A stretch of DNA of 50,621 bases from Leptolyngbyaceae cyanobacterium CSU_1_4 (lineage in GTDB: Bacteria; Cyanobacteriota; Cyanobacteriia; Elainellales; Elainellaceae): positions 1 to 50,621 of the forward strand of contig JAAUPA010000006.1 of assembly GCA_012034615.1 (NCBI GenBank). The letters run 5' to 3'. Of the stretch, positions 43,384-45,891 are shown piece by piece (position 1 is the first letter of the stretch; each line of letters starts with the position of its first letter). Under the pieces are notes generated by a model. It was not told where the DNA came from. It ran no database searches and worked only from the letters and a program-made list of their open reading frames with translations. Made by a program: the position numbers and the translations under genes.

Positions 43384-43836
43384 ATGGCTAAGCAAATATC
43401 TGAACGAGTCGGTGCGTTTATTCTTCGTAAGCGAAATAGTTTATATGAGTTATTGCTGTTCCGGCATCCCCATAGCAAAGGAGCAAGCATTCAAATTCCA
43501 GGCGGTGGAGTTGAGGCAGGAGAATCGATCGAGGCAGCACTTCACCGAGAAATTTGTGAAGAAAGTGGGCTGACGAACCTCACCATTATTCGGAAGTTAG
43601 GCGAATCGCGGCGATGCTGGTTAGATACAAATGTCGAATCCTGTCGCCATTATTTTCTTTTAGAGTTACATGAGGATGTTCCTGATCAATGGGAACATTG
43701 TGTTCACGGTGACGGTATGGATGCTGGGCTAAAGTTTTCCTATTACTGGCATCGTCCGGCGATCGGGTTTATGCTACCCAAAAGCAGCGGACAAGTATTT
43801 TTGAATCCGAAGCACATTCCCGAACTGTTCTCTTAG
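43384..43836 (+). CDS. NUDIX hydrolase
   Basis: A 150-residue protein from ATG 43384. The NUDIX box GGGVEAGESIEAALHREICE followed by ESGL matches G-x5-E-x7-R-E-x-x-E-E-x-G. The rest (RRCWLDTNVESCRHYFLLEL, GLKFSYYWHRPAIGFML) suits a nucleoside diphosphate-derivative hydrolase. It overlaps the convergent GTPase gene by 4 bp. Confidence 0.85.
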   Translation: MAKQISERVGAFILRKRNSLYELLLFRHPHSKGASIQIPGGGVEAGESIEAALHREICEESGLTNLTIIRKLGESRRCWLDTNVESCRHYFLLELHEDVPDQWEHCVHGDGMDAGLKFSYYWHRPAIGFMLPKSSGQVFLNPKHIPELFS

Positions 43837-45102
43837 GTATTCTCTGAAGGTTTAACTTTTCTAAATCTTTCCTGCGCCGATTGAAACGCTTCCTTCATCA
43901 CTGCCTGAATTTGCTGGGGGTCGGGTTTCTTCCCACCCATTAAATCTCCAAAATAAAGACAGGCTCCTTCACCCAGCGCCCAAGTGTAAGCCGCCGCCCA
44001 AGATGCCGCTATGACGCTGCCAAAACCAGGGATAAACTTAATCAATTCGCGCCCCACGGCTTGAGCCAGGAAGCCTCCGGCGATCGCGCTGACCACTCCA
44101 CCCGCCTGAGAAGGAGTCAACGTCTGCCCATACAGTTTCCCTAGTAAGCCCACCATTGAAACCTGTAGAGCCGTTAAAACAGGCATGGTCGCAAAAGGCA
44201 GGGGAACAGCCGCCAATGTCGCCGCCATCACAGTAAAAGCTGTCATGTAACGATGTGCCGTATCGCGGTAAAGCGTGCCAATTTTGTCAGTAGCGCCTTC
44301 GTCTAAAAGCTGATAAATGGCTGCCGATTCGGCTTCGGGAAGCATCTCGGCGAGGGCATCTCTAAAGGCTTCCAAACCATAAAAAACGGGATCATAGCCA
44401 TCTTCTTCTAGGGTGAAATCGATGAGAATGGCAGCATCATAACAGCCCGTGAACGTGGCTTTGAGAGCAGAAAAAATGCGATCGATTTCTTCAGAAGCGG
44501 GAGGGTAGGGCGGATGGTCGGCATTAGGAGGATAAACTTCGTGGAGACAAGTAACAGCTAGAAGGCAGGGAATATCGGGGTGCTGCTGCCGAATTTGTTG
44601 GGCAATTTGTTTGAGGCTATCGGTGGCAAAGTCGCTAATTTTAACCGTGATGATTAAGACCCTGGCTCCTCGGCTTTTTGTTGAAGGTTGTCTGCTAAGT
44701 CTTGGGCGATCGCTGAGTATCGCGGCTAACATCTCCTAAACCAACGGTATCTGTAAAAATAATCAGCGGCAAATCATCAGAGGGATAAGCATAGCGCTGA
44801 GTGTGCTGAGTGTGAGGACGAAATCCTTGTCCAATAATTTCCGCCGAAACGCCAGTTAACCCGCGCACAATTGAGCTTTTTCCCGATTGCGGCTTACCCA
44901 TTAAAACAGCTTCGGTAGTCGGGAGTTCTGAACGGACTCGTTCTAAAATCTCCGCAACTTGGGCTTCGTCAATACTGAACCATCGAGCGGGATTTATTTT
45001 TATGGGCAATATTTCTCTCACACGGTTTGTCACACCCTCTATCCAAGAGCGCGGTTCCCCAGTGGATTGAGAACTGACATCAGGCTCGTGTGGCTCAGGC
45101 AT
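43833..45102 (-). CDS. Era-like GTPase with DUF697-type membrane domain (two frameshifts)
   Basis: About 423 residues when repaired. The G1 motif is MGKPQSGKSSIVRGL, the G3 motif is FTDTVGLGDVS, and a T-C-L in LLAVTCLHEV takes the place of the usual N/TKxD. The C-terminus has hydrophobic segments (YMTAFTVMAATLAAVPLPFA, VVSAIAGGFLAQAVGRELIK, FGSVIAASWAAAYTWALGEG) as in DUF697 proteins. Single-base losses near 44713 (TQAIAQDLADN restored) and 44660-44662 (one C short on the plus strand) break the frame. It probably acts at the membrane in a stress or cell-envelope role. Confidence 0.8.
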
Positions 45103-45310: not shown

Positions 45311-45526
45311 CTATCGCAACTGGTTGAACTCTGCCTCAGTGATACCTAACTGCTTCAGAATTTCCTGAAATAACCAACTCCCTATCTCTGTGTTGCCATG
45401 AATCGGAATTGTTGTTGATCTTCCATCAGAATGCCTCCATCGCACATGGCTTCCTTTTTGCCGAGCCTTTTCAAAACCCAATTTTTGTGCGACCCGTTCA
45501 ATCTCTTTTGGGCATTGCTGAATCAC
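45311..45526 (-). CDS. hicA: HicA-like toxin with start supplied by a MITE
   Basis: A 71-residue double-stranded-RNA-binding-like mRNA interferase: KEIERVAQKLGFEKARQKGS, HVRWRHSDGRSTTIPIHG with the catalytic His in GSHVRW, and EILKQLGITEAEFNQL. Its first codons are GTG-ATT-CAG-CAA-TGC from the terminal repeat of an inserted element. Before insertion the gene would have begun ATG-CCC-GCT-AAA-GCA within the end of hicB (MPAKAKEIERV), a normal HicA start. The insertion removed that start but left an in-frame GTG. Confidence 0.85.
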   Translation of the reverse strand: MIQQCPKEIERVAQKLGFEKARQKGSHVRWRHSDGRSTTIPIHGNTEIGSWLFQEILKQLGITEAEFNQLR

Positions 45527-45657
45527 AGTATGAATTGCCCCCTAAATCCCCCAGAATAGGGGACTTCCGAACCTCAAAGTCCCCCATTCTGGGGGATTTA
45601 GGGGGCGATCGGAGAAATAGCATCTCAAGGATTCATACTTCCATTCAACAATGCCCC
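45511..45657. mobile_element. 147-bp MITE-like element inserted in hicA with 10-bp target duplication
   Basis: The ends are inverted repeats: GGCATTGCTGAATCACAGTA at the left and, read from the right, GGCATTGTTGAATGGAAGTA, both continuing TGAAT. Inside are the C/G palindromes CCCCCTAAATCCCCCAGAAT and TTCTGGGGGATTTAGGGGG. The flanks carry an exact 10-bp duplication, ATCTCTTTTG (45501-45510 and 45658-45667). No transposase is encoded, so it is a non-autonomous element moved by a transposase elsewhere. Confidence 0.9.
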
Positions 45658-45669
45658 ATCTCTTTTGCT

Positions 45670-45891
45670 TTAGCGGGCATGGGTTACTGCCACCTCGACA
45701 TCCTCAGGTAGTTCTTGACCTGCTTCTTGATACTCATCCCGGATCATCTCAAACACATGAACAAGTTCAGCTTGTGCCTCCTCTGAAGTTTGTCCCCATG
45801 CATGGCAGCCTGCAATTGCTGGAACATAGGTCACAAAAGTTCCATTGTCATCGGGACGCAGCACGATAGTGTAATTTCTTAGCGATCGCAT
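45670..45891 (-). CDS. hicB: HicB antitoxin
   Basis: A 73-residue protein with the HicB partial RNase H-like fold: NYTIVLRPDDNGTFVTYVPA, IAGCHAWGQTSEEAQAELVH, VFEMIRDEYQEAGQELPEDV. HicB binds HicA and represses the operon. It lies upstream of hicA on the same strand, now separated from it by the MITE-like insertion; its own stop codon and frame are intact. Confidence 0.9.
   Translation of the reverse strand: MRSLRNYTIVLRPDDNGTFVTYVPAIAGCHAWGQTSEEAQAELVHVFEMIRDEYQEAGQELPEDVEVAVTHAR

Follow-up and report, generated by a model that had tools for sequence, protein, structure and literature searches.

What becomes of a toxin gene when a small mobile element lands just behind its start codon? This question is raised by a hicBA toxin-antitoxin module in a stretch of 50,621 nucleotides from Leptolyngbyaceae cyanobacterium CSU_1_4 (contig JAAUPA010000006.1; the whole stretch is referred to here as the window). 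A preliminary description of the locus proposed that an inserted element had cut off the original hicA start, uncoupled hicA from hicB, and re-created a start codon, possibly altering toxin dosage. The insertion and the damage that it did were confirmed; a re-created start that alters dosage was not upheld.

The insertion and the ancestral module

The hicB antitoxin gene, the upstream gene of the module, is intact (minus strand, positions 45670 to 45891) and encodes a product of 73 aa that matches HicB_lk_antitox (PF15919, 30.8 bits; cutoff, 27), with no DNA-binding family detected by Pfam. The hicA product matches HicA_toxin (PF07927, 71.2 bits; cutoff, 27). In a survey of hicBA systems, compact modules were assigned to class 2, defined by reversed gene order and a small HicB without a DNA-binding domain, and gene overlap was taken as a sign of translational coupling; linkage of the two genes is usual and not obligatory (PMC10865869). 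The module described here has the HicA domain and the small upstream HicB of class 2, and the close linkage or overlap of the genes is present in relatives and broken in the window by the insert. PADLOC returned no match. Two more HicA-family genes are present in the genome (G000:C315:17747-17911, 35.1 bits, and G000:C227:1089-1241, 31.8 bits) and are distant from the hicA of the window. After hicA on the minus strand (window positions 43833 to 45102), a gene for a GTPase whose C-terminal part is DUF697 is spread across three frames (DTQ / AIAQDLADNLQQKAEE / GARVLIITVK), so that it either was frameshifted twice or contains sequence errors.

The insert lies within the hicA coding sequence and spans 147 bp (positions 45511 to 45657) between two exact copies of the 10-bp sequence ATCTCTTTTG at positions 45501 to 45510 and 45658 to 45667, where the preliminary description had placed it; the duplication can also be read as 12 bp with one mismatch. 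Mechanical repeat detection identified 26-nt terminal inverted repeats matching at 85% (left, 45510 to 45535, plus strand; right, 45631 to 45656, minus strand) and an inner G/C-rich palindrome (45534 to 45609) with 33-nt arms (45534 to 45566 and 45577 to 45609) matching at 94%. No reading frame within the element exceeds about 41 codons, and there is no transposase gene. Terminal inverted repeats, short length without a transposase gene, a target duplication, and many copies in the genome identify the insert as a MITE-type, non-autonomous element, as had been proposed.

The uninterrupted site was sought in relatives and found in three genomes, those of filamentous cyanobacterium CCP2 (L051), Leptolyngbya sp. 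FACHB-36 (L052), and Leptolyngbyaceae RM1_406_9 (L053). In each of them the target ATCTCTTTTG occurs once, and hicA begins with an ATG (MPAKAKE) and shares its first 11 nt with the end of hicB; this is the ATG-started hicA that removal of the element from the window had been said to rebuild. The two flank matches obtained by genome search overlap by exactly 10 bp in G012 and G032. The N-terminus now read in the window was not found in relatives lacking the element, whose hicA has the ATG start. The 11-nt overlap is the usual arrangement in 73 hicB loci, and none of the 73 carries the element at the hicB/hicA junction in a search from which the records closest to the window's genome may be missing. 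For the 73-locus comparison, as for the comparison with G001 described below, the first five residues of the relatives were substituted for the element-derived ones in the tblastn hicA query.

The element family and the age of the hicA copy

At least 40 scored copies of the element are present in the same genome, 77 to 91% alike and many of them end to end. The end motif GGCRTTGCTGAATC occurs 105 + 94 times in the genome when one mismatch is allowed, versus 2 + 3 times for a reversed-pattern control. The consensus derived from 26 aligned copies is about 145 bp long and has the ends GGC...GCC. Among these copies, exact target duplications of 8 bp were found at eight and one of 9 bp at another; because the duplications of the family are mostly 8 bp, that of the hicA copy is atypical. 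Related copies are present in many genomes of the same family, as determined by genome search. Searches via the DDE_Tnp_1, ISL3, and IS1595 families revealed no autonomous element with these ends in the element's own genome; the single ISL3 match lacks the element's ends, and IS1595 gave no match. The element did not match plasmid records, and a literature search for its end sequence retrieved unrelated papers only.

Many contigs (C5, C42, C57, C134, C229, C245, C260, C318, C321, C350, and C365 of G000) end 40 to 110 bases inside an element end, near the hairpin center. Assembly was probably interrupted by the hairpin, in which case the genome has more copies than were counted. At two other loci, L140 (G000:C326:2300-4500) and L141 (G000:C261:14800-16800), the inner hairpin of a MITE copy is interrupted by a transposase gene of the ISAs1 family, a different one at each locus. 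These inserts have the inner ends CAGGG...CCCTG, each transposase gene is broken into two frames, and the outer 8-bp duplications of the MITE copies are intact (CATTTAGA and AAACGTGC). The transposase pieces between the two halves look like later insertions; either the hairpin is a favored ISAs1 target or composite elements formed twice.

In the comparison of the 26 copies, a single mutation is private to the hicA copy, and its terminal branch is short; this copy is therefore probably among the younger ones. It is distinct from all other copies, the nearest being only 88% alike. This distinctness bears on the possibility that the element was wrongly joined at this site during assembly, as might happen in a copy-rich draft genome of 379 contigs with many contig ends inside element copies. 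We regard such a misassembly as the least probable explanation of the locus, given this difference from all other copies, the exact target duplication where relatives have the target once, and the two flanks, which come from one gene pair and stand in the order expected.

Reading frames and the candidate GTG start

The old hicA ATG (positions 45680 to 45678) now begins a frame of 11 codons (MPAKAKEMGHC) whose stop lies within the repeat of the element (remnant at 45645 to 45680, minus strand). The old start can now yield only this 11-residue peptide, and the hicA body is severed from the overlap with hicB; hicB itself is intact. On both the lost start and the broken 11-nt overlap, the preliminary description was correct.

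In the hicA frame, the last upstream stop is a TAG that belongs to the element. The next ATG, GTG, or TTG in that frame is a GTG at positions 45526 to 45524 (minus strand), within the left terminal repeat. This GTG is in frame with hicA, as had been stated, reading VIQQCPKEIERV, and opens a frame of 71 aa without a stop (positions 45311 to 45526, minus strand). The frame is open over its full length, with a strong match to the HicA family, retention of helix 1 (KEIERV), and the GSH motif kept. The minus-strand reading of the same repeat contains a second potential start, an ATG in CAATGCCC, which is out of frame (MPKRD, stop). We considered the open hicA frame as a sign of function and rejected it, since with one private mutation in the element few changes are expected after the insertion; if the insertion was recent, the frame would be open in any case.

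If the element GTG is used, a nearly complete HicA carrying six new residues at its N-terminus would be made at lower dosage, uncoupled from hicB and still functional as a toxin. This reading, which we consider unlikely, draws on the intact frame described above and on a strong Shine-Dalgarno-like sequence, AGGGGG (positions 45538 to 45543, minus strand), located 11 nt upstream of the GTG and pairing well with the 16S tail (duplex, −9.3 kcal/mol). In cyanobacteria, a Shine-Dalgarno sequence is often absent ahead of gene starts. The predicted RNA structure argues against use of the GTG. The element RNA was predicted to fold into one long hairpin (−97.1 kcal/mol; z, −12.2), and in a 250-nt junction transcript the AGGGGG, which is the only Shine-Dalgarno-like sequence available to the GTG, had a predicted unpaired probability of 0, being fully paired in the inner stem. 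From −15 to +15 around the GTG, the mean predicted unpaired probability was 0.13, versus 0.12 to 0.52 at native hicA starts, one of which (L054) was predicted to be as paired as the GTG start. Low, leaky translation from the GTG may occur.

The position of the GTG is also less telling than it appears. By chance it would be in frame in one of three insertion phases, so that the coincidence needs no selection. Among the 30 copies with readable surroundings, no other supplies an evident gene start; in two (L007 and L023) an open frame likewise runs on from the element into a gene, and in both of them the gene appears to have an ordinary start farther downstream.

A test for a promoter inside the element had been suggested, and the promoter scan detected no promoter-like site reading from the element towards hicA; its one promoter-like site was in hicB, at chance level. 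The terminator scan did not call the element hairpin an intrinsic terminator. Since a comparable hairpin MITE of Microcystis is transcribed through (PMC11448079), read-through from hicB is likely by analogy, and the resulting transcript would contain the element hairpin.

In one further possibility, hicA would stay coupled to its old start through the hairpin. Ribosomes translating MPAKAKEMGHC would occupy the 5' arm at the hairpin base, free the 3' arm that bears the GTG, and re-initiate there, so that translation of the 11-residue leader would open the hairpin and HicA would be made from the element GTG, with toxin dosage lowered and re-timed. The geometry is suggestive, in that the old ATG is intact, the short frame ends in the 5' terminal repeat, which faces the 3' repeat containing the GTG, and the inner stem would bring the stop and the GTG together. 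We nevertheless hold this switch to be very improbable; about 118 nt separate the stop from the GTG, neither a comparable copy nor a precedent was found, and selection for hicA is not visible.

Selection on the module, toxin loss in other loci, and known systems

The hicA and hicB genes were compared by a codon-model branch test with 18 taxa. On the window branch, hicA had a dN/dS of 0.378, versus 0.056 elsewhere (2ΔlnL of 5.85 against one common ratio and of 0.58 against neutrality). For hicB on the same branch, dN/dS was 0.03 and neutrality was rejected at 15.5; hicB is thus constrained. The 2ΔlnL of 5.85 for hicA was the highest of the 18 terminal branches tested alike (the next was 2.68), a signal that would fail correction across all 18 branches. 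The test involves few changes and one branch chosen beforehand, and it covers the whole lineage, before and after the insertion together. Private codon changes in hicA gave a similar picture, with 4 synonymous and 4 amino-acid changes in the window versus 24 and 2, respectively, in the three closest relatives (Fisher P = 0.018). The evolution of hicA on this branch is compatible with neutrality, and the comparison with hicB suggests that selection has relaxed on the toxin only; this relaxation could pre-date the insertion. Near-neutral change in hicA but not in hicB counts against a functional toxin made from the element GTG.

Loss of the toxin gene was also seen in other loci. No hicA match was found beside hicB in 22 of the 73 loci, and about ten more have a hicA fragment only, so that toxin loss is a common fate of these modules. 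The same-genus species G001 retains approximately 54 residues of a truncated hicB, with no hicA nearby. In L064 (Gloeocapsopsis LEGE 06123) and L089 (Drouetiella hepatica), the hicA sequence is missing from a point directly behind GCAAA(AGAA), about 10 bp or less from the MITE position in the window, and hicB is frameshifted in both; the junction is perhaps a weak point, or perhaps the coincidence is due to chance. A different arrangement was observed in three Nostocales loci (L112, L114, and L115), in which about 190 nt separate hicB from a downstream hicA that is intact and has an AGGGG-type leader of its own. In these naturally uncoupled modules, the intergenic stretch contains a terminator-like hairpin, and hicA is preceded there by a good Shine-Dalgarno sequence. 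Uncoupling alone therefore need not kill hicA, a point in favor of a toxin still expressed in the window.

Taken together, these results make it probable that hicA in a class 2-like hicBA module was decapitated by the insertion and that loss of the toxin is under way. Decapitation followed by decay is more likely than a new start with changed dosage, since the GTG is buried in predicted RNA structure and hicA is changing as if unselected; ordinary gene decay is in this respect a more probable account than a rewired toxin. The claim of a re-created start that alters toxin dosage is not supported, given the one-in-three chance of an in-frame GTG, the predicted pairing of the start region and Shine-Dalgarno-like sequence, the lack of a promoter-like site reading from the element towards hicA, the relaxed selection on hicA, and the absence of hicA beside hicB at many other loci. 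The course of events that we favor would have begun with a compact hicBA module in which the hicA ATG overlapped the hicB end. A short MITE-type element, presumably moved in trans by a transposase, would have inserted after the first codons of hicA. The intergenic RNA hairpin and the lost overlap would leave hicA at best weakly translated from the element GTG, so that toxin production would fall to little or nothing and selection on hicA would relax, and hicB would persist for now as a lone antitoxin.

On this interpretation, the locus offers a clean case, with empty sites in relatives, of a toxin-antitoxin module probably disarmed toxin first by a common small element and with the antitoxin still under selection. 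If the GTG were used, a MITE would have supplied a start codon to a toxin, which the evidence makes less likely. The locus also carries a warning for annotation, as automated gene calling would probably present this gene as an ordinary HicA of 71 aa.

Disruption of a gene by a MITE is a well-known kind of event, and cyanobacterial MITEs, including Nezha and the Anabaena MITEs, have been reviewed (PMC10969869); our literature search on MITEs inside hicA returned nothing relevant. In-frame fusions of such elements with open reading frames are known for Rickettsia palindromic elements, ERIC, and BOX (cited in PMC10969869). As in those fusions, element sequence joins a host reading frame at this locus; unlike them, it does so at the 5' end, contributes a start codon and no more than six residues, and is known from sequence alone, with no selection visible. 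A 187-nt MITE of Microcystis, which is linked to ISL3 transposases, is often located between toxin-antitoxin systems and also inserts into genes (PMC11448079). The element described here resembles this and other cyanobacterial MITEs in its short length, terminal inverted repeats, stem-loop RNA, 8-nt duplications, and tens of copies. It differs from the Microcystis MITE in its end sequence (GGCRTTGCTGAAT here versus GGCTCTTCG there) and in that the sole ISL3 match in the window's genome does not have the element's ends. The module, for its part, is like class 2 HicBA systems (PMC10865869) in having hicB before hicA, a HicB of 73 aa, a HicA of 70 to 71 aa, and genes that overlap in relatives, and it departs from them in the window, where the insert has broken both the overlap and the hicA start.
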